From Brachionus manjavacas (Eukaryota; Rotifera; Eurotatoria; Ploima; Brachionidae), in the NCBI GenBank assembly GCA_019054805.1, contig JAHQIY010000039.1, forward strand, positions 248,001-312,000: a stretch of DNA of 64,000 nucleotides. Reading direction: 5' to 3'. How positions within the stretch are numbered: the stretch's first letter is position 1; each line of letters starts with the position of its first letter. The position numbers and the translations under genes are program-made. Under the pieces are notes generated by a model that saw only the letters and a program-made list of their open reading frames with translations, searched no databases and was not told where the DNA came from. Shown one piece after another: positions 11,531-56,400 of this stretch.

Positions 11531-11615
11531 TTTATTATTTATTATTAATTATAAGCTAAGGCCGATCGCCGACCACTTGCTCAGTTACCCGTAAAATAAG
11601 GGGCACTGTGTTTAG
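11531..11615 (-). repeat. Structured retroelement 3' end with ATT-repeat tail (copy 1)
   Basis: Read on the minus strand, an outer pair CTAA/TTAG encloses a C-rich/G-rich arm and a perfect arm GGTCG-GCGAT-CGGCC (one G-U pair). It is followed by TTAGCTTATAATTAATAATAA. The architecture matches the three other tails at 17202, 26020 and 46599, although the primary sequence differs. It lies downstream of the LINE fragment at 12119-12345, on the same strand. Confidence 0.5.
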
Positions 11616-11861
11616 TAAAAAAAAATATAAAAATTACAAAATTGAGTATAAAAGGTACCAAACAAAAAAAAGTAAAAAAAGTGCCATAGTTTCTAATTAC
11701 AATTTTAGGTATTCAATGATATAATAAAATTAGTTGTTAGACTTTTGATTGATAAGAGACTGTCGGATATGAAAACTAAGCTACATCAAATCTACAAATC
11801 TGGAAAATTAAGCCCGATATGTTATCTTTACTCCCTGTCTTATATTTCTCTGAGCTTTTAG

Positions 11862-12098
11862 ACTTTGACATCGTTTTTTTTATTTGAACGGTACTCAGTA
11901 ATGTTATTCAGCTTAACAAGTTTACATTTGTCCTGTAGTGACATGTTTTCCTCTTCCAATTCACTGGTAATTTCCAGGATTTCGCTAATGAAGTCATTCG
12001 GAATCGGTTGTTTTGCTAGCTCAATATTCATCTTCTTAGTGAGTTCATTCTCAATTAATCGATTGAAAAAGTCAACCGTAATGTTTTTGATGATTTAA
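11862..12098 (-). pseudogene. Orphan coding-like fragment, unrecognised
   Basis: The minus strand has an open frame of about 78 codons without an ATG at its head. It encodes an amphipathic, acidic and probably coiled-coil segment (for example ELTKKMNIELAKQPIPNDF and EITSELEEENMSLQDK). Residue usage looks like real protein, unlike the surrounding A/T-biased frames. It sits between a LINE reverse-transcriptase fragment and a LINE-type tail, so a transposon origin is likely. An exon of an unrecognised gene cannot be excluded. Confidence 0.35.
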
Positions 12099-15143: not shown

Positions 15144-18100
15144 ATGAGCTTTTTTGGTCAATCGCAGAACAATGGCGTATCCAGACAAACATCTGGTGGG
15201 TCATCATCAAGACGCCCAAGCATCGAAGACGCTCAGCCGTCTTCGTCCGGCACAGCGACAACCCCTAGCCGTCCAATAACCAGAAGTTTCCTCAAAAGTC
15301 AGCAAATGCAGCCTTCTACAAGCTCGCAGCCACCAGTAAACTCTTCCTTGACTTCACTGTCATCGCTGTCCTCCTCTACTTCTTCACTCAACTCAATGGA
15401 TACCACCCAATTTGAAAATAAACTGAACTCTTTTCAATCTGGTGAAACAGACAGTTTCTTGAACACACTGAATCAAGAGTCTTCTTTTGCCGATAAGTTC
15501 AAACCGATTGATTTATCCATAAAAAATAATGATAGCACCCATCAGAAGATTCTGATCGATGAGACACCAATGAACATCGTGAGTCTGATCGAAAGGACTC
15601 GGATGAACGGAAGAAACCACCGCAGCCTAATAAATGCAAGTTTTATTTTATTTCCAAAAAATTAATTAATTTTATTATCAGGAATTAATAATTTATTTTT
15701 CAGCTTCCAAATTCGACGCTGAGTTTTGTGACACAGCGCTTCAAAATGCATGACTATCCACTTTTGATAAAAAGACTGGATCAATCGAGCATCATTCAAA
15801 ATTTGCGCTATGGGTCGCCAGAGCTTGATGATTTAATTCTCATTCTTAGAGTTGGTTTTGAAAAAAAAAATTTTTTTTGGTCTTTTATTAAAAATTTTAT
15901 TAAGGACACTGAGTACAGATTGATAAATTACAATGCCAATGCGAATGATCCTGAAAATATGGGAGATGACGATAATCAGTCCAGGGAAGAGTTCGAAATT
16001 GAAACAATAAATATTGAGAGTGCCAGTGTGTTTAGGCAATTAGGAGGAATTGAAGTAAAATGAGTTTTTCTCACTTTTTTCTAAATTTTATTTTTTTTTT
16101 TTTGTTCAGATTTTGAAGAGAATTTTACTAATGGGTATTTTGACTTGTGAACAGCCGAGTGAAAAACAGAAATTCGGAAAATATGCCGCTAATAAAGAAT
16201 CGAATAAAATTGGATTTGAAAAGTGCTTTATTTTAAAGATCAAGTGCAAAGTTATTCACATTTTAAATCGCCTCATTTGCTTGGTATGTAAAGTTAACTA
16301 TTTAATTATTTATAGCGTATACCCTTGTAAATAAGCGCCCCCAAAATCGTGTCTGTACAGAAGAATTTAGGCCCTTAGATGATATAAAATTTTCTTCGGG
16401 GGACTTTTATTTGCAAGGGTATACGGTACTTGTACTTTTAGAGTAGAAAAATGCATTTTTATTTAAAGAATTTTTGATTTTAAATAGTAGATAATCTAAC
16501 TGCGACCCGAACAAGTCGAGATGAGCAGTTCTTTGCAATCACACCAGTTTCTGTACCATAAACCATTAATCAAGGCTTTTTCGCATGGCCTCTTCAATTA
16601 TAATTGTTTCCTTGAACATATCTGATTCCATTTACCAATTTAACAGTTTCGAGACCATTTATAATCTTAAAGAATTCAATAAAACCACTTCTTTTTCTGC
16701 TCGTATCTTGAGACATAATTTGCTCAATCTTTCTTCATATTCATGATTCTTCGAAGCTGAAATCAACGCTGTTCGTAGCTCTACGCTGTACTTTTTCTAA
16801 TTTCTTCTTATCTTCATTCAAATACAGATTCCAAACACAGACCACATATTCAATAAGAGGTCTAATCAATGAGGTATACTTTAGCTTAACTACATTAACG
16901 TCTAAAAATATTTGACTTTGCTCCATGATTATTAAAAATTTTGTAGTTAAACTGAGGATTTTTATTTCCAATATGCATAACTTTACATCTCTCTATGTTA
17001 AAATCAGTCAGAAAATAAAAAATTTATTCTTATTTTGAGAATTTTAATTTTAAATACTAGAAAATATACTTTATAAATTCTAGTTTTACCCAATTTTACG
17101 TAAATTCGTAAAATAACTTGAGTTGAAAAATGGTGCATCTACCGAATATTACAAATAAAGCGGTAATAGAAAAGACGGCCAAAGATATTTTTATCTTGGA
17201 AAATAATAATAATAATAATAATAATAAATAAGCTACGGCAAGCATGCTTGCGAAGACGTCTTACTAGGAAGACATCTATGGTAGCTAGATGCATTGAAAT
17301 TGTTATTAATAGTTTTCTATTTAAATATAGACAGATCTAAAAAAAAAACATAACACAATACAAAAAGTTGAATTTAACTAAGTTGGGAAACCGGTTATTA
17401 CAGAATTAATTTTGAATTTTTTCAATAAACGATTATGAAAAATTAAATTCTGATGTGAAAAATTTAAAAAATTTTTAGTACTCTTTTATTTAATTTTGTA
17501 CCAGTTTCGGGTCGGTTTTTATAATTTCTTTATTTTTTTTAATCTCTACTTGATTGATTCCAATGAAATTTGAGTTTTCCTTCATTCTTCCTTTTTTTTC
17601 AAGCTTACCAGGATAAAAAATAACGCATAAAAAGCTATGCTAAATTAAATTGATATTTTCAAACGAAAATTTAACTAAATTAAAATTTTAGTAATAATTG
17701 TATTCTAAATTATTCTTTCCCTTGTTTAAATTCATTCTCAGAAACTATTATCAAAATAAAATTAGTAATCTATAATTTAACAGTTCACTCTTTTCTAAAA
17801 TCAAAATTAAAAAACTTAAACTGGGAACACTCTCGAATCAACTTTTTGTGTTGACTGAGAGAGACGATAAAGCAGTACTTAGTCGTTTTGTCTCATTGGT
17901 TCCAGATTGGTAGAAGATTACATCAATTTAAAATTTTTTATCTATATAATTTTAAATCAAAATATAATTAATTAATTAATAAAGTTTCTTGTAACTTCTA
18001 AACTTCTTTTTCTGATAAAATAAATAATTAGCCCATAAGTAGAATATTGTGTTGCCCCCTTAGTTTTTTGCTAAAGGAAAGGTGAAAGTTTATGTCCATA

Positions 18101-25690: not shown

Positions 25691-26019
25691 ACTTTTTAAT
25701 CTTTTTATTCACCTAATGTCACTTTTGTAAAAATTTGGTTTTTGAAAATCTATTTAATGTGTAAAATCTACAACCTATGGATGTATCTTATTTGACGGTA
25801 CACCCAAAACAGTGGTCGGTTGAGCAGCCTTTTATTATTAATTAAATAAATATACGTCTTCTGATCTTGTACACAAACTACCGTTCCATAGGCACCACAA
25901 ACAATTTTATTATTTATTCGTTCTATTTTTTTATTCTTGCAAAAATTATTTAACTTTTTTTTAACCCTAAAATTTTTATTGTATATTTCTATCAGTGTTT
26001 TATCTCATTATGTGCAACG

Positions 26020-26105
26020 AGCTACCATAGGCGACCTCTCATGTAGGACGCCTCCGCAAGCTAGTCTTGCTGTAGCTTTTTTATAATAATAATAATAATA
26101 AATAA
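26020..26105 (+). repeat. Structured retroelement 3' end with ATA-repeat tail (copy 3)
   Basis: On the plus strand the outer helix AGCTAC/GTAGCT encloses an arm AGGCGACCT/AGGACGCCT (eight of nine pairs) and an arm GCAAG-CTAGT-CTTGC, followed by TTTTTTATAATAATAAT. Compared with copy 2, paired positions have changed together. No coding sequence is joined to it. Confidence 0.65.
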
Positions 26106-31800: not shown

Positions 31801-34222
31801 ACAGAATTTTTAACAATAAAAATTTTTTGACTGCATTATTGTAATTTTCAATTGTAAATTTCTTTGATAATTGCGTAAAACCTTGCAAATTAACCTATCG
31901 GGTTCTGATGTAAAATGGTTGAGTTGATAAAAATTTTTTTTATTTTTTTTGTAAAAGCATTAAATTTTACTCAGTATAATTTCAAAATTCTTTATTTAAT
32001 TTAATGAGCTTTTAATATTTTGATTTTTAAAATTATACAAAATAGTTGAAACAATAAAAAATAATGGAAACTAAACAAGCTTATAGAGCAATTTTTGTAC
32101 ACATCATTAACAAAAAAATAGGTTCTCAATTTTTACCTAAGATTTTAAAAACATTGAAAATTGATTTATTTTATAAAAAAATCATCAATGATTTTATAAA
32201 AAAAAAATTCAAAATTTTTTTCTAAATTTTTCAAATTAAAATAAAATTAAAAAAATATTTAAATTTTAACATTGGATAGATTTTTTAATTCCAGAAAAAG
32301 AGAAAAAAAATCCACTTACATTCGTTATTAAGCTTGAGATCAATAGAAGGATGTTGTTGCTGAATTAAACTTGGATCGTAATAGATCTGGTTGATATTGG
32401 TGGTGGAAAGAGCGGGACGAAAAGATGGCGGTGTAGACGTATGAGGCGAGAAGTTGGTATGAGGCGGATGCTGTCGATTTGCGGTGTGCTCTTGTGCAGG
32501 TGCACGCACAGACTCGGAGTTGAGTTGATGCATTTTTCGGTAGTCACTGGGCGACATGTTGCTCAAAGTTGGATTGGTGTTGGCGTTGACTGGGTCGGCA
32601 ATGGCGAGCACTTGCGGCTGGTAGTTGAACCCGTTTCCCATCCGATCTATTTCGAACTGAATGTCGGCCAGCTTTTTGAGTTCACCTGGTTGCACAAAAT
32701 CGGGCGCCACCTCTCTGGCTTTGACGCGCGCAAACTCCGAATCGGCAATGGCTTTTTTGGCCTCGATTTCGGACGCGAACGCCTTCGTTCTGGCATTGAC
32801 CGCTCTTGCGAGCGCAATGTCAGCGCGCTGCTGAGCTATTTGAGCGGCCTTGAGCGCAGCATTCACAGCCGCGTCTATCTTCTGTCTCAGCTTGTTCGAT
32901 CTGAGCATCATGAGCTTGCCGGCCTTCTTTTTATCAGTGGTGAGAACGTTGTTGCGGTACTTGCCCTCTTCTTTGGTGCCGTCCTTGAATGTGGTCACGC
33001 CGTATCCATTTTTTTTGTTGTTAAACCACTCGCCTTCGTACTTGAGGCCGTCGGAGCGCTCCGCAATGCCGAAGCCGGTCCGCTTGTCCTGCTTCCACTC
33101 GCCCATGTACACCTCGATGCAGTTGACGTCGGTGATTTCGTCCTGGCTGATGAAACTGTGCGCGTCGTCGTCGCACAGCGTCTGATGGTTCATGTGCGCG
33201 GCCATGGACGGCGAATTGAGTCCGAGGAGGCCGGCAGGCGCGGTCCGGTTCGAGGCCCGCGAGTCCACGCTGTTGTTGCTGGATGTGGACCGAAAGGAGC
33301 TTTTTTTTTGAGCGCGGCCCGACGAAGTGGTCAACACGTTCAAGTTGGCCGCCTGCGAGCCACTGTTGCCACTGTTGACCGCGTTCGCCTCGTCTATGTC
33401 GCCCACGCTCTTCTGCTTCTTCAGCTTGGTCATTATTGTCTTGCGCAGGCTCACGCGTCTGTCCTGTGCACTGCCACTGCCATTTCCACTGCCGTTGTTG
33501 GCGCTCTGGCCATGCAGCGAGTTGCGTCTGCGTCGGAACATGGCGTTGATGGCGCTGGTCATGCGATTGGCGCTGCTGGTGCTCTGGTTGAGCGTGAGGG
33601 CGGCGTGGTCATGGGGCTCGAGGCGGGCGCGAAGCACAAAGCCGCCGCGGTTCTCGTCGAAGCGCCGGTCGCGCTCCCGCTGAATCCTCTCGTCGTCGTC
33701 CTCGCTGCGCAGCGAAGTCAGCGAGTCTTTGATGTCCTTGGAGCGGTAGCGGGACGCGATCGCATACGACACGCTCTTGCGGATGCCGTAGCCGTTGCGC
33801 ATGCCCTGGCTCATCTGGCCGAAGAAGGTGCCGCCGTCGGCGTACGTCTCGCTGCCGTAGCCGTCCTGCAGCCCGTTGGCCCATGTGCCCTCGTACTTGG
33901 CGCCGCTCAGCTCGCTCATGCGCACTCCGTACCGGCCCTTGAAGCCCTGCGACCACTCGCCTTTGTACACCCAGCGTTGCTTTTTTTCGACGCCGAGACC
34001 GTGCCGCTTGCCGCTCATCCACTGGCCCAGGAAGCAGTTGCCACTCGGCCACATGTAAACGCCGCTCACCTCGTAACCGTACTGCCACATGCCCGAGAAC
34101 TCGCCCATCGACTTGGGCCCGGTGCACACGCCGAAGCCGTGCGCTTTGCCGTCCTCCCAGCCGCCGCAGTACGTGCCGCCGTCCTCAAAGTCAAATCTGC
34201 CCGCGAACGTTGTTGTCGTCAT
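28832..34222 (-). CDS. JPH: Junctophilin, 5 exons, complete with C-terminal anchor
   Basis: A structural protein tethering endoplasmic/sarcoplasmic reticulum to the plasma membrane at junctional complexes in excitable cells. Exons (minus): 34222..32320, 30268..29330, 29267..29158, 29091..29005, 28918..28832; 1041 aa in frame, all GT-AG. Residues 13-155 hold the first MORN block (for example [38 protein letters not shown]). A Ser-rich joining region follows, then the last two MORN repeats near 370-415 ([24 protein letters not shown]). An Ala-rich helix is at about 445-505. A long Gln/Asn/Ser-rich divergent region follows, then the basic [18 protein letters not shown]. The final 87-nt exon encodes [20 protein letters not shown], the tail membrane anchor. 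Exons 4 and 5 were found from splice phase. Exon 1 is strikingly GC-rich against its surroundings, and intron 1 is 2.05 kb. Confidence 0.9.
30381..30530. repeat. Perfect 74-bp tandem duplication in junctophilin intron 1
   Basis: The unit containing AACTGCTTGTTACAATCAAT occurs twice with a 74-bp offset and no difference that I can see, in sequence whose neighbours are otherwise diverged. It is a recent duplication or an assembly artefact. Confidence 0.85.
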
Positions 34223-35059
34223 CGTTTTTAGCTTCTGCCACAGCCACTAACAAGCAGCTACAATTTTTGTTCAATGTCAGGCTACGGTGGACTTTAGGCT
34301 TTAGTTTGCAGTGACAAATGGTGATGATGATGATGATGCTGTTATATAATGAGATGGCACTGCTGTTGATGGTTGTTGCAGAGTTTTGCTTGAAGTCTTT
34401 CGTGAAGAGTTGCTTGGAGTGATTGATTAGAATTTTGTTTGTGAGCTAATAGGCACGAATTGATTGCGTTCGGTAGTGTCTTCAAATGGTTTAAGATCAT
34501 TATATGTCATTTCATTGCATTTAGGTACAATTTTGAGTTGGTACAAAGTGCACAATCTGTGATCTTTACTGATACTTTAAATCTGTGTTTAGAATATAAA
34601 AATTATTTTTTTTTTAATTAGTTTATTTGTAGGCAGCCAAAGTTGTGTCATTCCACAACTTTGACCAGAGTTATTTTTAAGTCACAAGTCTTTGCTCAAG
34701 TTTAAATCATTTAATAGATTCAGACATCTTTGTTTTAAAATAAATCTATATTAATTTATTTTAGCGTATTATTTATTTATTTATTGAATCGATTTGAATT
34801 TGAAGCCCCTTAACTGAGAAGTAAAAAGAAGAAAAAGAAAAATTACAAAGATATAAAAAAAATGTGAGTTCAACAAAACTTGATGAATTTTTTTTATACT
34901 GAATTAGTTGATTTAAAAGAATAGTGAATTATTCAGATAATAATAAGAAATTTTTCGAAGAAAAAAATGCTCAAAAAATTCTTAAGCTAAAAAAATTATA
35001 ATTGATCACCAACTTCAACCTGCCGTCATTAATTTACTCGTAGAACAAAAAACGCCAGA
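34223..35059. promoter_or_regulatory. Junctophilin 5' flank
   Basis: This region is upstream of the junctophilin ATG (minus strand). It is less AT-rich than the general background up to about 34.5 kb and includes a short GAT repeat near 34319-34338. Presumed 5' UTR and promoter; no specific motif is recognised. Confidence 0.4.
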
Positions 35060-45862: not shown

Positions 45863-46598
45863 TTAATGAAAATTTATTGAAAAATAACATAAATGAAAAT
45901 ATAGTAATAAATAAAAATAAGAAAATTGAATAAACTGAAAAAAAAACTTTTCTAAACTTTTTGAAAAAAATAAAGTATCCATTTTATTTAAAAATCCATT
46001 TAACGTTGTTTTTTCAACTTCTCTTGGCAACTTGTTGCACTCATTCACGACTCAATTTGTAAAGAAGTTCAATATTGTAAATCCAATTCTGGCTAACTGT
46101 TTTTCAAAAACATAACTGTGACTTTTAGAAAAACCAATTCCATTCAAACTTATAAAAGTTTTACAATCGTTGCAAAAAATTGTTTAATTAAATCTCTTCT
46201 TACTTTTCTTTTTTTCAAGCGTAGTAAGTTTAAACTTTCTAAGAGGTTCTTCATATCTCAAGTTTCTCGATTCTCCAATTAGTTAAGTGGCCTTATTTGG
46301 ACACCTTCTATGCTTTTGTGTCTTTCTTTAACATCGGATTCCAAACTTGAACTGCAAACTCTAAATGAGGTATAACCAATGTAGTATACACTTTCTGGAA
46401 TGTTTCCATGTCACAATATATAAAATTCCGTTTGATGGGACCTAAGTTTTGATTAGCTTCCTTAATGACTGTCGAGCTGAATTTTTCAAATCGCTAAAAA
46501 TTGCTCTTAAGTTTCTTTTCTGAATTGACACCTTTAGTTTGCTTCGCGAATCGCCCTAGTAGAACTTGCCTTTTTGATTTTTAGTACCCAAGTGATAT
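45863..46598 (-). mobile_element. LINE copy A, C-terminal half, decayed
   Basis: The minus strand reads through RT/thumb pieces (VIKEANQNLGPIKRNFIYCD, then TTLVIPHLEFAVQVWNPMLK) to the terminal segment VVNECNKLPREVEKTTLNGF. Several stops and frameshifts interrupt it. The first about 190 bp of this copy (46408-46598) recur inverted at 49488-49699. Confidence 0.7.
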
Positions 46599-46678
46599 AA
46601 TAATAATAATAAAAAAAAAATAATAAGCTACAGCAAGTAGGCTTGCGGAGACAACTTACTACGGAAGCCGTGGTAGCT
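46599..46678 (-). repeat. Structured retroelement 3' end with TTA-repeat tail (copy 4), joined to LINE copy B
   Basis: On the minus strand, about 85 nt after the LINE B frame ends, the outer helix AGCTAC/GTAGCT encloses an arm ACGGCTT/AAGTTGT (two G-U pairs) and an arm GCAAG-CCTA-CTTGC, then TTATTATT and A/T repeats. This is the only copy joined to a reverse transcriptase body, so it identifies the class of element that owns the structure. Confidence 0.7.
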
Positions 46679-48060
46679 GCTTTACATTGACCTTAGAGAA
46701 TAATTGTTGTTTAGATCTCTTTGATACTGGAGTTGAGACAGCGCTGCTGTCTCGGCGGTAATTAAGGAATCAAGGCCTAGTAATACCGGAGCGCTGGACC
46801 CGATGTCCGCTGGAATACTTCCAAGCGTTGAAACTGTTCTTGAAATCGCTGTAGCTGAAGTTACGGATTCTCAGAACAAGTTTTGTTGCTCTTCTTTGCA
46901 CTTTCTTAAGAATGTTGCTGTCCTTGGCATGGTGGGGGCACCAAACCACTGCTGCATACTCCAAATGGGGCCTGACATATGCGCAGTATAGTGTTTGAAG
47001 GTGGCGTTGGTGCACAATTTAAACGTTTGTCTTAGCTGTCCAAGGATGGCGATGGCCTTATTAGATTAGGCTTTGATATGTCTGGAGAACTTGAGATTGC
47101 TTGCGAAGGTGATTCCCAGATCTTTTTCAATACCAGTTTGATTGAGTACTGACCTTATCACACCCATGCAGAGGTCTTTGTCCGAGTACTTTTTCTGACC
47201 GGATCTGCTGAATTTCATTTCTTTAGATTTTTCGGTATTGAACAGCATCTGCCAAGTTAGGGACCACTCAGTTAGTGCCTCAAGATACTTTTGAAGCAAT
47301 TCCAGGTCATTAACATTGCGGATGGTTGCAATGAGCTTGCTATCATCCACGAAAAGCTTGATGACGTGGTTTACTTTATCAGGCATGTCGTTGATGTAGA
47401 TAAAAACAAGAGCGTTCCTAGAACACTGCTTTTGGGGACTCCACTAGTAACTTTTATCCAGTCCTACACATACTGTCCTATTGCAACTCCTGCTTCCGAT
47501 CTAGTCGGAAGCCATAAGCAGTCACTCTATTACAGAGGAATCGGGGCACACTTTATCAAAAGCTTTGGCAAAATCCAAGAAAACCACCAGCACATTCCAG
47601 CAGTTATCGATACCTTCACTGATCCTGTCTACTGTTTCCTGGAAGTTGGTCATTGTCGATTTGTTTAGGACAAAACCATGCTGCTCAGGTTCATTTAGTT
47701 TATTGCTGAAGAGGTGTTCGATCAAGACGTCTCTTATGATTCGTTCCAAAATCTTACATGGCAGTGCAGTTAGCGAAACTGGCCTTTAATTGCTTACCAG
47801 ACTTCTGCTACCTTTATTAAATATAGGCGTAACATGGGCTCGTTTCCACAAATCGACCCTGTCGTGTTTTGCCAAGAATCGAGCATACCGTATGGGTCCG
47901 ATTCTTGTTCTGAGGATGTCCAAAAATTCGTGGATCGTCGCTAAATTGAGCGATGATGGATAGCATCGAATCGAGCACATGAAGTCTTGAGGTCTGTTAT
48001 AGATATTGCCCATCAATTGATCGAGTCTGGCGTCATCGATTCTGTTGAACTTGTCGCCTA
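46679..48060 (-). mobile_element. LINE copy B, reverse transcriptase with FVDD box, decayed
   Basis: On the minus strand a non-LTR reverse transcriptase runs in the order KRAHVTPIFNKGS, PCKILERIIRDVL, EPEQHGFVLNKST, VVFLDFAKAFDKV, YINDMP, KLFVDDSKLIATI (the catalytic YxDD box as FVDD), EKDLGITFASNLKFSRHI and [16 protein letters not shown]. Stop codons and at least two frameshifts separate the pieces, so this copy is not active. It lacks the upstream endonuclease and ORF1. It is flanked by LINE A fragments of opposite orientation. Confidence 0.8.
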
Positions 48061-48560
48061 TAGTTTTGTTCCGACGTCTTGTTCCATACTACGTGCTGAT
48101 CACTTTAATACTGAATAGTGAAGCTATTTACACAATGTAAAAATCAGTCCACGTGGTTTTCATTATTTCCAAAAAGTGTCAATTGGATTGCAATGACGTA
48201 ACGTGGATGTGTCCCTTGTCCTGCAATTTTCAAACCCAACAACAATTAAAGATTCGGTCTTGGTCTTGTTGTCTTTTCACTAGATGATAGACGTCTCGTC
48301 CATACGTTCCTAGTCTTACTGAATTTCAATTGATTTTTTAAATTCTTTTTCCACGTGAATCACTAAAATTATAGTCGATTCGCCAAATCAGATCACCATT
48401 ATCTGGTTTTCTACACGTGTATTCAGTCTTGCACAACTTCTTTGATTGTAAGACGTCTCGTCGCTGCGTCCCTAGTATTTACAAATCAACTCGCTGCTTC
48501 AGCAAACTAACCTACACTACCACCTGAGTTCTTTCCGTGTCGTGAGTTCGTTCCGAATGC
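48061..48560. repeat. Non-coding segment with three copies of a GACGTCT motif
   Basis: GACGTCTTGTTCC (48073), AGACGTCTCGTCC (48289) and AGACGTCTCGTCG (48451) each lie in a related context ending in ...CGT and CCTAGT. The segment is GC-richer than its surroundings and lies just upstream of LINE copy B. It may be its 5' UTR or a separate repeat. Confidence 0.35.
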
Positions 48561-50409: not shown

Positions 50410-53400
50410 ATTAAAAGACAGGAACTATAAAAACTTCGTATTAGCAAAAAACCCATTTTTTGACGTTTTTCAAAAAGGTTTTTTGCAATGAATTTTTCAA
50501 ATTATGGAAAACCGAAGTTACCACTAGATAGATCTTGAAATTTTCTTGACTTTGGCTTTTACAGTTCAAAAAAAGGTCAAAGATTCGAAAAGTTATGCGC
50601 ATGCGAAACTTGCAAGTGATTACCAATAACTGAGTTTTCAAATCACTGCAGAATGGTCAATTTTTTAGCTACGATAATAGTTAATAGCTCAAATTCAAGA
50701 GCGCAAAAAGTTCTACATGATACAATTTACAGGAGTCCAAAAAGTTAAAAGGACAAGAAATTAGGCGACTTCGAAAAAGAGCAAAAAACCCATTTTTTGA
50801 CGTTTTTCAAAAAGGTTTTTTGCAATGAATTTTTCAAATTATGGAAAACCGAAGTTACCACTAGATAGATCTTGAAATTTTCTTGACTTTGGCTTTTTCA
50901 GATTAAAAAAAAATAAAAGATTCGAAAAGTAATGCGCATGCGAAACTTGCAAGTGATTACCAATCACTGAGTTTTCAAATCACTGCAGAATGGTCAATTT
51001 TTTAGCTACGATAATAGTTAATAGCTCAAATTCAAGAGCGCAAAAAGTTCTACATGATACAATTAACAGGTGTCCAAAAAATTAAAAAGACAAGAAATTA
51101 GGCGACTTCGAAAAAGAGCAAAAAACCCATTTTTTGACGTTTTTCAAAAAGGTTTTTTGCAATGAATTTTTCAAATTATGGAAAACCGAAGTTACCACTA
51201 GATAGATCTTGAAATTTTCTTGACTTTGGCTTTTACAGATCAAAAAAAGGTCAAAGATTCGAAAAGTTATGCGCATGCGAAACTTGCAAGTGATTACCAA
51301 TAACTGAGTTTTCAAATCACTGCAGAATGGTCAATTTTTTAGCTACGATAATGATTAATAGCTGAAATTCAAGAGCGCAAAAAGTTCTACATGATACAAT
51401 TTACAGAAGTCCAAAAAATTAAAAGTACAAGAATTTAGGCGACTTCGAAAAAGAGCAAAAAAAACATTTTTTGACGTTTTTCAAAATGGTTTTTTGCAAT
51501 GAATTTTTAAAATTATTGAAACCGAAGTTACCACTAGATAGATCTTGAAATTTTCCTGACTTTGGTTTTACAGATCAAAAAAAGGTCAAAGATTCGAAAA
51601 GTTATGCGCATGCGAAACTTGCAAGTGATTACCAATCACTGAGTTTTCAAATCACTGCAGAATGGTCAATTTTTTAGCTACGATAATAGTTAATAGCTCA
51701 AATTCAAGAGCGCAAAAAGTTCTACATGATACAATTTACAGGAGTCCAAAAAGTTAAAAGGACAAGAAATTAGGCGACTTCGAAAAAGAGCAAAAAACCC
51801 ATTTTTTGACGTTTTTCAAAAAGGTTTTTTGCAATGAATTTTTCAAATTATGGAAAACCGAAGTTACCACTAGATAGATCTTGAAATTTTCTTGACTTTG
51901 GCTTTTACAGATCAAAAAAAGGTCAAAGATTCGAAAAGTTATGCGCATGCGAAACTTGCAAGTGATTACCAATAACTGAGTTTTCAAATCACTGCAGAAT
52001 GGTCAATTTTTTAGCTACGATAATGATTAATAGCTCAAATTCAAGAGCGCAAAAAGTTCTACATGATACAATTTACAGGAGTCCAAAAAGTTAAAAGGAC
52101 AAGAAATTAGGCGACTTCGAAAAAGAGCAAAAAACCCATTTTTTGACGTTTTTCAAAAAGGTTTTTTGCAATGAATTTTTCAAATTATGGAAAACCGAAG
52201 TTAACACTAGATAGATCTTGAAATTTTCTTGACTTTGGCTTTTACAGATCAAATAAAGGTCAAAGATTCGAAAAGTTATGCGCATGCGAAACTTGCAAGT
52301 GATTACCAATAACTGAGTTTTCAAATCACTGCAGAATGGTCAATTTTTTAGCTACGATAATGATTAATAGCTCAAATTCAAGAGCGCAAAAAGTTCTACA
52401 TGATACAATTTACAATTTTCCAAAAAGTTAAAAGGACAAGAAATTAGGCGACTTCGAAAAAGAGCAAAAAACCCATTTTTTGACGTTTTTCAAAAAGGTT
52501 TTTTGCAATGAATTTTTCAAATTATGGAAAACCGAAGTTACCACTAGATAGATCTTGAAATTTTCTTGACTTTGGCTTTTACAGATCAAAAAAAGGTCAA
52601 AGATTCGAAAAGTTATGCGCATGCGAAACTTGCAAGTGATTACCAATAACTGAGTTTTCAAATCACTGCAGAATGGTCAATTTTTTAGCTACGATAATGA
52701 TTAATAGCTCAAATTCAAGAGCGCAAAAAGTTCTACATGATACAATTTACAGGAGTCCAAAAAGTTAAAAGGACAAGAAATTAGGCGACTTCGAAAAAGA
52801 GCAAAAAACCCATTTTTTGACGTTTTTCAAAAAGGTTTTTTGCAATGAATTTTTCAAATTATGGAAAACCGAAGTTACCACTAGATAGATCTTGAAATTT
52901 TCTTGACTTTGGCTTTTACAGATCAAAAAAAGGTCAAAGATTCGAAAAGTTATGCGCATGCGAAACTTGCAAGTGATTACCAATAACTGAGTTTTCAAAT
53001 CACTGCAGAATGGTCAATTTTTTAGCTACGATAATGATTAATAGCTCAAATTCAAGAGCGCAAAAAGTTCTACATGATACAATTTACAGGAGTCCAAAAA
53101 GTTAAAAGGACAAGAAATTAGGCGACTTCGAAAAAGAGCAAAAAACCCATTTTTTGACGTTTTTCAAAAAGGTTTTTTGCAATGAATTTTTCAAATTATG
53201 GAAAACCGAAGTTACCACTAGATAGATCTTGAAATTTTCTTGACTTTGGCTTTTACAGATCAAAAAAAGGTCAAAGATTCGAAAAGTTATGCGCATGCGA
53301 AACTTGCAAGTGATTACCAATAACTGAGTTTTCAAATCACTGCAGAATGGTCAATTTTTTAGCTACGATAATGATTAATAGCTCAAATTCAAGAGCGCAA

Positions 53401-56400
53401 AAAGTTCTACATGATACAATTTACAGGAGTCCAAAAAGTTAAAAGGACAAGAAATTAGGCGACTTCGAAAAAGAGCAAAAAACCCATTTTTTGACGTTTT
53501 TCAAAAAGGTTTTTTGCAATGAATTTTTCAAATTATGGAAAACCGAAGTTACCACTAGATAGATCTTGAAATTTTCTTGACTTTGGCTTTTACAGATCAA
53601 AATAGGTCAAAGATTCGAAAAGTAATGCGCATGCGAAACTTGCAAGTGATTACCAATAACTGAGTTTTCAAATCACTGCAGAATGGTCAATTTTTTAGCT
53701 ACGATAATGATTAATAGCTCAAATTCAAGAGCGCAAAAAGTTCTACATGATACAATTTACAGGAGTCCAAAAAGTTAAAAGGACAAGAAATTAGGCGACT
53801 TCGAAAAAGAGCAAAAAACCCATTTTTTGACGTTTTTCAAAAAGGTTTTTGCAATGAATTTTTCAAATTATGGAAAACCGAAGTTACCACTAGATAGATC
53901 TTGAAATTTTCTTGACTTTGGCTTTTACAGATCAAAAAAAGGTCAAAGATTCGAAAAGTTATGCGCATGCGAAACTTGCAAGTGATTACCAATAACTGAG
54001 TTTTCAAATCACTGCAGAATGGTCAATTTTTTAGCTACGATAATGATTAATAGCTCAAATTCAAGAGCGCAAAAAGTTCTACATGATACAATTTACAGGA
54101 GTCCAAAAAGTTAAAAGGACAAGAAATTAGGCGACTTCGAAAAAGAGCAAAAAACCCATTTTTTGACGTTTTTCAAAAAGGTTTTTTGCAATGAATTTTT
54201 CAAATTATGGAAAACCGAAGTTACCACTAGATAGATCTTGAAATTTTCTTGACTTTGGCTTTTACAGATCAAAATAGGTCAAAGATTCGAAAAGTTATGC
54301 GCATGCGAAACTTGCAAGTGATTACCAATAACTGAGTTTTCAAATCACTGCAGAATGGTCAATTTTTTAGCTACGATAATGATTAATAGCTCAAATTCAA
54401 GAGCGCAAAAAGTTCTACATGATACAATTTACAGGAGTCCAAAAAGTTAAAAGGACAAGAAATTAGGCGACTTCGAAAAAGAGCAAAAAACCCATTTTTT
54501 GACGTTTTTCAAAAAGGTTTTTGCAATGAATTTTTCAAATTATGGAAAACCGAAGTTACCACTAGATAGATCTTGAAATTTTCTTGACTTTGGCTTTTAC
54601 AGATCAAAAAAAGGTCAAAGATTCGAAAAGTTATGCGCATGCGAAACTTGCAAGTGATTACCAATAACTGAGTTTTCAAATCACTGCAGAATGGTCAATT
54701 TTTTAGCTACGATAATGATTAATAGCTCAAATTCAAGAGCGCAAAAAGTTCTACATGATACAATTTACAGGAGTCCAAAAAGTTAAAAGGACAAGAAATT
54801 AGGCGACTTCGAAAAAGAGCAAAAAACCCATTTTTTGACGTTTTTCAAAAAGGTTTTTTGCAATGAATTTTTCAAATTATGGAAAACCGAAGTTACCACT
54901 AGATAGATCTTGAAATTTTCTTGACTTTGGCTTTTACAGATCAAAAAAAGGTCAAAGATTCGAAAAGTAATGCGCATGCGAAACTTGCAAGTGATTACCA
55001 ATAACTGAGTTTTCAAATCACTGCAGAATGGTCAATTTTTTAGCTACGATAATGATTAATAGCTCAAATTCAAGAGCGCAAAAAGTTCTACATGATACAA
55101 TTTACAGGAGTCCAAAAAGTTAAAAGGACAAGAAATTAGGCGACTTCGAAAAAGAGCAAAAAACCCATTTTTTGACGTTTTTCAAAAAGGTTTTTTGCAA
55201 TGAATTTTTCAAATTATGGAAAACCGAAGTTACCACTAGATAGATCTTGAAATTTTCTTGACTTTGGCTTTTACAGATCAAAATAGGTCAAAGATTCGAA
55301 AAGTTATGCGCATGCGAAACTTGCAAGTGATTACCAATAACTGAGTTTTCAAATCACTGCAGAATGGTCAATTTTTTAGCTACGATAATGATTAATAGCT
55401 CAAATTCAAGAGCGCAAAAAGTTCTACATGATACAATTTACAGGAGTCCAAAAAGTTAAAAGGACAAGAAATTAGGCGACTTCGAAAAAGAGCAAAAAAC
55501 CCATTTTTTGACGTTTTTCAAAAAGGTTTTTTGCAATGAATTTTTCAAATTATGGAAAACCGAAGTTACCACTAGATAGATCTTGAAATTTTCTTGACTT
55601 TGGCTTTTACAGATCAAAAAAAGGTCAAAGATTCGAAAAGTTATGCGCATGCGAAACTTGCAAGTGATTACCAATAACTGAGTTTTCAAATCACTGCAGA
55701 ATGGTCAATTTTTTAGCTACGATAATGATTAATAGCTCAAATTCAAGAGCGCAAAAAGTTCTACATGATACAATTTACAGGAGTCCAAAAAGTTAAAAGG
55801 ACAAGAAATTAGGCGACTTCGAAAAAGAGCAAAAAACCCATTTTTTGACGTTTTTCAAAAAGGTTTTTTGCAATGAATTTTTCAAATTATGGAAAACCGA
55901 AGTTACCACTAGATAGATCTTGAAATTTTCTTGACTTTGGCTTTTACAGATCAAAAAAAGGTCAAAGATTCGAAAAGTTATGCGCATGCGAAACTTGCAA
56001 GTGATTACCAATAACTGAGTTTTCAAATCACTGCAGAATGGTCAATTTTTTAGCTACGATAATGATTAATAGCTCAAATTCAAGAGCGCAAAAAGTTCTA
56101 CATGATACAATTTACAGGAGTCCAAAAAGTTAAAAGGACAAGAAATTAGGCGACTTCGAAAAAGAGCAAAAAACCCATTTTTTGACGTTTTTCAAAAAGG
56201 TTTTTTGCAATGAATTTTTCAAATTATGGAAAACCGAAGTTACCACTAGATAGATCTTGAAATTTTCTTGACTTTGGCTTTTACAGATCAAAAAAAGGTC
56301 AAAGATTCGAAAAGTTATGCGCATGCGAAACTTGCAAGTGATTACCAATAACTGAGTTTTCAAATCACTGCAGAATGGTCAATTTTTTAGCTACGATAAT

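Follow-up and report, generated by a model that had tools for sequence, protein, structure and literature searches.

A branched three-way-junction fold before the tandem-repeat tail of diverse LINE lineages in the rotifer Brachionus manjavacas

Do the AT-rich repeat tails found along one contig of the rotifer Brachionus manjavacas share a folded RNA element and, if so, to which retroelements does this element belong? The window, i.e., the whole 64,000-nt stretch of DNA that was analysed, contains four such tails, for which a sequence-only reading had claimed the same fold, an outer helix around two hairpins, common to several LINE lineages or borrowed by a SINE family. We compared the copies in the window with the genome (114.17 Mb in 61 contigs, GC content 29%), using covariance models, folding of single sequences with shuffled and real-sequence controls, and a set of 3' ends picked by similarity of the reverse transcriptase (RT). 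The coordinates are given in Table 1.

Table 1. Retroelement 3' ends in the window, with positions counted from its first nucleotide.
Feature	Position	Strand	Detail or basis
Copy 2, three-way-junction fold	17230..17285	(-)	outer helix GCTAC/GTAGC
Copy 2, arms	17230..17285	(-)	arm 1 AGATGTCTT/AAGACGTCT; arm 2 GCAAG/CTTGC
Copy 2, tandem (ATT)n tail	17202..17229	(-)	sequence and DNA pattern search
Copy 2, entire 5'-truncated copy	17230..17300	(-)	71 nt, 98.6% to the 3' ends of L030/L031/L042
Copy 3, three-way-junction fold	26021..26078	(+)	arm 1 AGGCGACCT/AGGACGCCT, one A-A mismatch
Copy 3, AT-rich (ATA/AAT)n tail	26079..26105	(+)	sequence
Copy 3, 5'-truncated LINE 3' end bearing it	25854..26078	(+)	ORF2 end and 3' UTR
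Copy 4, decayed three-way-junction fold	46625..46677	(-)	matches of models R1 and R2
Copy 4, tandem ATT tail	46599..46624	(-)	sequence and DNA pattern search
Copy 4, broken LINE ORF2 remnant joined to it	46682..48088	(-)	RT, several frames
Copy 1 (non-member), 3' end of another LINE family	11531..11615	(-)	models R1/R2, own repeat family

Folded alone, copies 2 and 3 both form an outer helix with two hairpins, at -20.2 kcal/mol (0 of 200 shuffles as good) and -22.3 kcal/mol (4 of 200 shuffles as good), respectively. For copy 4 folded alone, the three-way junction is not the minimum-energy fold (-15.8 kcal/mol, 23 of 200 shuffles as good), and model R1 places a gap of 4 nt in the first junction/arm when aligning this copy; in L053, a relative of copy 4, the three-way junction is the minimum-energy fold, yet it takes up 0.17 of the ensemble. 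Model R1, a covariance model built from 28 copies that included the three in the window, scored copies 2, 3 and 4 at 78.1, 74.8 and 52.3 bits, and the next match in the window, on the opposite strand of copy 2, reached 14.4 bits. Model R2, built from an alignment of RT-selected tails alone (A3, see below), ranked the same three copies at the top with 45.3, 43.1 and 24.5 bits, followed by a match of 14.1 bits; it is not fully independent, the rows of A3 having been found with R1, and L083 in A3 has the GCTAC outer helix in common with the window copies. Copies 2, 3 and 4 are one LINE tail family, in which copy 4 is decayed. They lie before AT-rich tandem repeats where the earlier reading had placed them, and the joining of copy 4 to a LINE RT is borne out by a Pfam RVT_1 match (E 1.7e-8) at 47522-47785 in the ORF2 remnant. 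In the first arm, two pairs change on both sides between copies 2 and 3 (A-T to G-C and T-A to C-G), not the three that had been counted, one changes on one side (T-G to C-G), and a single pair is lost (T-A to A-A), as had been noted.

Several other features of the window were observed. A second RT-like fragment, read by eye, lies immediately downstream of copy 4 at 46340-46460 (-). Repeats of a 337-bp unit form a satellite at 50443-54000 (10.6 copies, 97% matches) that reaches the end of the stretch scanned, and several of its units contain an 82-aa open frame. A 620-aa open frame at 32369-34231 (+) is antisense to a 653-aa ORF at 32285-34246, which we take to be a MORN-repeat, junctophilin-like protein.

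Copy 1, by contrast, does not belong with the other three. It was missed by models R1 and R2 even with filters off, and the outer helix CTAA/TTAG, with which it had been thought to replace that of the others, is absent from the minimum-energy fold of its sister L060 at four lengths. It has a repeat family of its own, with 20 matches, 12 other copies spanning most of the query at 89-95%; this family, aligned over 12 loci including copy 1, retains the hairpins CAGTG..CACTG and GGTCG/CGGCC, and its loci L059-L061 gave no tail match with model R2. Copy 1 had been grouped with the others because it also ends in an AT-rich repeat. At 11531-11900 (-), the LINE family of copy 1 ends in two conserved hairpins of its own and an AT-rich tail, possibly another type of structured tail.

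The pattern GCTACC-gap-CGCAAGC-gap-GTAGCTT matched the genome 313 times (168 forward and 145 reverse, at least one tail, L023/L024, being counted twice), and the reversed pattern 0 times. These GCTAC copies split into subfamilies by arm 1, and the length of the tail repeat differs between copies. Among 29 of the 313 that were compared, likeness upstream of the tail extends over varying lengths, and therefore they are read as 5'-truncated LINE copies; nucleotide identity upstream is about 63-74% between subfamilies. One element, L039, has upstream of its tail an ORF1-like frame (no Pfam match), an endonuclease (Exo_endo_phos, 5.7e-9) and an RT (RVT_1, 3.1e-31), and the solved chains most similar to this RT are mostly R2 and LINE-1 proteins. 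From the style of their motifs, these LINEs are presumably CR1/L2-like. In L039 the APE-type endonuclease occurs together with the RT, the combination expected of LINEs of the Jockey superfamily (CR1/L2-like), whose clades are listed in PMC4120745. A TCTGC-type pattern gave 25 genome matches (reversal 0), and one scan of viral contigs with six peptide patterns found no relatives there.

Given 27 further loci of the GCTAC group, model R2 recovered every one (29.3 to 52 bits); it also found L079, which lies outside A3, at 21.9 bits. At L005:2693-2759 a further decayed fold stands before an ATT tail (24.5 bits with model R2); the three-way junction is not the minimum-energy fold there. Comparison with Rfam gave no family at the gathering score within the window. 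With E up to 10, 12 loci gave 4 matches, none of them to a retroelement family and none to UnaL2 (RF00436); a genome search with RF00436 also gave no match, but its control gave a signal in 0 of 14 genomes. A Vault RNA (RF00006; 52.8 bits, E 1.2e-9) at L019:106-203 (-) has a LINE tail copy about 1.3 kb away.

An important distinction of the following set is that its members were picked by RT similarity. The RT P0001 gave 76 matches in the genome, from 69 scored candidates of 6549, and 16 stretches (L071-L086) were picked at 36-51% identity, all identities being measured against one query RT and the 3'-end positions being judged from RT coordinates. A predicted fold is present at the 3' end in 13 of the 16, with RT identity of 36-46%. 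The remaining three are L081 (51%), whose stretch stops short of the tail and, by eye, matches L071 as far as it goes, and L084 (47%) and L086 (51%), with neither tail nor fold at the places guessed from RT coordinates. The 13 represent ten lineages (L071, L072/73/74, L075/85, L076, L077, L078, L079, L080, L082, L083), so that the claim of a three-way-junction tail common to several LINE lineages stands, with strong covariation between them (see below). Model R1 scores of the 13 tails range from 6.7 to 43.6 bits; therefore, in most of them, structure rather than letters carries the likeness. The branched element is about 50-68 nt long, with an outer helix of 5-7 bp around two hairpins and junction strands of about 3/2/1 nt. 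The fold stands directly before, or within a few nt of, a tandem repeat that is specific to the lineage (ATT, AAT, ACT/CTA, ACTAT or CATATT); this repeat is clear in 11 of the 13 loci, the other two being L072 and L074, which have only about one CATATT unit, compared to several in their sister L073.

In the RT-selected loci, the fold lies 3' of ORF2. For example, the exact pattern of the L077-type tail has 159 genome matches (reversal 0), and within the genome portion spanned by the 100 listed places of this type, it follows 391-395 nt downstream on the same strand in 18 of 22 RT rows (38-41% identity) and lies on the opposite strand in 0 of those 22; the four rows without it include L078 and L082, each with its own version of the fold. 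In six of the 14 element types that were read, the ORF2 stop codon is inside the fold (the offset in L078 was worked out by hand), and therefore these six have no separate 3' UTR before the fold. The stop precedes the fold by 7 nt in L076, 48 nt in L042, 66 nt in L083, about 68 nt in L079 (by hand), 76 nt in L085, 134 nt in L045, 392 nt in L039 and 479 nt in L040, and in the L075 element type its position differs between sisters.

The fold, its 3' position, its covariation and a largely conserved junction are shown here. That one fold persists while its letters are mostly exchanged pair by pair suggests that it serves as the mark by which a LINE enzyme selects its own RNA for copying. Our preferred reading, which we consider quite probable, is that of a branched, stringent-type tail of diverse APE-type LINEs, read by the LINE's own ORF2 protein. 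The alternative that survives best, although we think it improbable, would have the fold serve the stability, processing or export of LINE RNAs without poly(A), and not act as a site of RT recognition. Structured 3' ends can protect RNA, and both the location at the very 3' end and the six element types with the stop codon inside agree with this role. However, the fold adjoins a tandem repeat of variable length, where reverse transcription is expected to start, and in relatives that have been studied, structures of this kind serve, or have been proposed to serve, in recognition by the RT (PMC4176376, PMC8665684). The two roles are also compatible with each other.

A second alternative explains the fold by common descent of the sequence, without selection on structure; the covariation would then be exaggerated by relatedness and by the fitting of the alignment. 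It can point to the choice and fitting of A3 by a model, to the relatedness of the lineages, and to the partly kept CATAG letters. Against it stands, first, the fold itself, which is seen in single sequences, free of any alignment, in comparison to both shuffles and real-sequence controls. Folded without constraints, the last 75 nt had the terminal three-way junction as minimum-energy structure in 14 of 16 tails. This test left out L072 and L074 as equal to L073, L085 as equal to L075, and the GCTAC-group tails L045, L046, L044 and L058, three of which (L045, L044 and L058) were already without a three-way junction at 75 nt. Shuffles of the 16 tails gave this fold in 17-56 per 1000; for the RT-selected lineages alone, the fraction was 8 of 10, with 17-45 per 1000 in shuffles. 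Among real sequences, a three-way junction was found in 84 of 4000 random 75-mers of the window, and in 1 of 49 upstream windows of the same loci. When all 23 tails are counted, 16 have the fold at 75 nt and 21 at one length at least from 58 to 80 nt; L044 and L058 have it at no length in this range, and in L073 and L077 it emerges only after flank trimming. The fold accounts for at least 0.74 of the ensemble in 12 of the 16 tails, and for only 0.02-0.17 in L077, L050, L053 and L073. Folding energies range from z -4.7 to -0.3, with values little below the shuffles in L075 (-0.3), L039 (-0.8) and L050 (-0.9). Of the 21 folding tails, 15 have junction strands of exactly 3/2/1 nt, and the other six have 3/1/1 (twice), 3/3/1, 4/2/2, 3/2/0 and 4/3/1. 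With two hairpins closed by a third helix, the element is not a single stem-loop of the UnaL2/ZfL2 type.

For covariation between lineages, we used A3, which has 10 rows from 9 lineages (L075 and L085 are one lineage) and was given no L072, L074 or L079. In this alignment, 17 of 19 pairs changed on both sides vs 10.7 in shuffles, with 54 two-sided cells vs 16.9, 95.0% of cells paired, and a covariation score of 0.764 vs 0.286 (sd 0.038) in shuffles and 0.198 or less in slid versions, all of which figures lean upward because the rows were picked and fitted by model R1. Within the GCTAC group (alignment A2), 94.8% of cells pair vs 91.2% in shuffles, and two-sided change is confined to arm 1, in 5 of 19 pairs (3.3 in shuffles, 23 of 500 shuffles as high), with 32 two-sided cells vs 10.5; further pair types do not exceed the shuffles (11 vs 11.7). 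The outer helix and arm 2 of A2 are nearly invariant because the search pattern fixed much of both. RNAalifold, run on A2, predicted arm 2 alone, with no outer helix or arm 1; the pair counts on alignments used given structures, and the minimum-energy fold tests are unaffected by this outcome, being alignment-free. A further alignment, A4, has three opposite-strand or partial matches inside and was used for no count.

The second point against common descent alone is that helix letters are replaced while the pairs are kept. With one tail per lineage (11 tails; L039 for the GCTAC group, and L009:2318-2373, found by R1, for L075/L085), the inner four pairs of the outer helix are paired in 44 of 44 cells, compared to a mean of 30.6 upon reassignment of strands among tails (0 of 100000 as high), and arm 1 and arm 2 are paired in 53 of 55 and 44 of 44 cells (0 of 20000 as high, each). 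It should be noted that these helices come from minimum-energy folds, with the length chosen per tail, and are complementary by construction; therefore, the strand shuffles show only that the strands are lineage-specific. Junction letters, in contrast, are mostly kept across lineages while helix letters swap in pairs: the first junction strand reads CAU or UAU in eight of the 11 tails (CCAU in L078, UAA in L076, CAC in L080), nine of the 11 have one U or C as the third strand, and arm 1 opens with an A-U pair in 10 of 10 rows of A3 and in 11 of 11 tails.

The third point is the difference between private and source-level changes. Comparison of six subfamily arms (15 pairwise comparisons, not independent) gave 36 differing positions that are still paired, 25 of them through two-sided change, and 11 that are not. 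Conversely, changes private to single copies broke 32 pairs and kept 16, 0 of which were kept via two-sided change; this count covers 75 of 100 listed places (313 matches overall), the 25 left-out copies having other lengths or spacing and including the subfamilies of copies 3 and 4. Because subfamily differences mostly keep pairs and private changes mostly break them, inserted copies seem to decay freely, while the source lineages appear to have kept the fold. With these three points, we regard common descent without structural selection as very improbable. Covariation and a link to retroelement 3' ends, on which the sequence-only reading had staked its claim, were thus tested in part: the copies covary, and the tails lie 3' of RT genes.

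That the short copies are a SINE family borrowing the LINE tail, the other possibility raised for this locus, is scarcely credible, judged from the subfamily of copy 3. In five copies of the copy 3 subfamily, likeness ends about 185-220 nt upstream of the tail end, and a genome search gave a shared start at query base 155; this apparent common 5' edge arises because the query itself ends there. All five other copies of the subfamily that were read continue into ORF2, four of them (L087, L088, L090, L091) far into the C-terminal coding sequence and the fifth (L089) into the last ORF2 codons, and start points vary among copies. Judged from their sequences, the short copies of this subfamily are truncated LINEs and not a SINE. 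In some copies of the subfamily (e.g., C5:2453309-2453641), two matching segments of the 3' UTR are separated by about 100-115 additional nt, possibly an insertion or deletion that marks a sub-lineage.

The preferred reading, a tail read by the ORF2 protein, can be compared to four known systems. (i) UnaL2, ZfL2-1 and ZfL2-2, stringent-type elements of the L2 clade, are likewise LINEs with endonuclease and RT, a structured 3' tail and a short repeat, and their stems are exchangeable between elements if the loop is kept (PMC4176376); the repeat unit of UnaL2 is described in PMC3747384. Their tail is a stem-loop, in which the stem is read in general and the loop specifically, whereas the rotifer tail is a closed three-way junction with near-fixed junction lengths and variable loops. 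(ii) Bird CR1 elements have a 3' inverted repeat right before an octamer microsatellite whose unit varies by family; the structure is a hairpin, a proposed RT site, and the description of it in PMC8665684, as far as available, contains no closed branched junction. (iii) The 3' UTR of the R2 retrotransposon is also a branched 3' RNA, of which the protein reads one stem and the adjoining junction strand (PMC10499050). However, it has 248 nt and at least 11 modelled stems, with about 40 nt resolved, and belongs to a site-specific, RLE-type element, compared to about 50-68 nt, an APE-type element and a tandem-repeat tail in the rotifer. (iv) The hairpin of plant L1 and SINE elements has compensated stem changes as well, with some loop and flank letters kept, but it is a single hairpin and belongs to the L1 clade (PMC3747384). 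We found no description of a three-way-junction LINE tail in the titles and abstract starts of the open-licence literature that was searched, and the available text of a paper on Brachionus repeats (PMC6555955) describes no LINE tail structure.

Stringent-type LINEs require the 3' structure, and in zebrafish L2 elements ORF2 binds the 3' stem-loop via the region between endonuclease and RT (PMC4176376). By analogy with zebrafish L2, CR1 and the R2 retrotransposon, we infer that ORF2 reads the junction. In the LINE RNA, the ORF2 protein would bind the fold through junction letters and helix geometry, not through helix sequence, and binding would position the adjacent repeat in the RT, where target-primed reverse transcription would begin on it. 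A lineage could in this way exchange its helices pair by pair while its own protein continued to read the tail. A bolder step is that termination of translation on the tail helps cis-preference. In the six element types with the stop codon inside the fold, the ribosome finishing ORF2 would stop on the recognition tail, and termination would pass its own RNA to the newly made enzyme, an inherent route to cis-preference; if so, evolution of the fold and of the final ORF2 codons would be constrained twice over. The broader version, in which the fold is a clade-wide module retained through deep LINE divergence and read by its junction core, with termination on the tail aiding cis-preference, is offered tentatively and is in our estimate rather unlikely.

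How LINE enzymes pick their own RNA has been worked out for few elements. One near-fixed architecture with about ten natural sets of helices in one genome is a ready-made mutational series, and swaps of tails between lineages could tell whether the protein reads the junction, the helix or the loop. Through its structure, the fold also allows genuine LINE 3' ends to be located, and a cis-preference model becomes testable because the stop codon lies within the tail.
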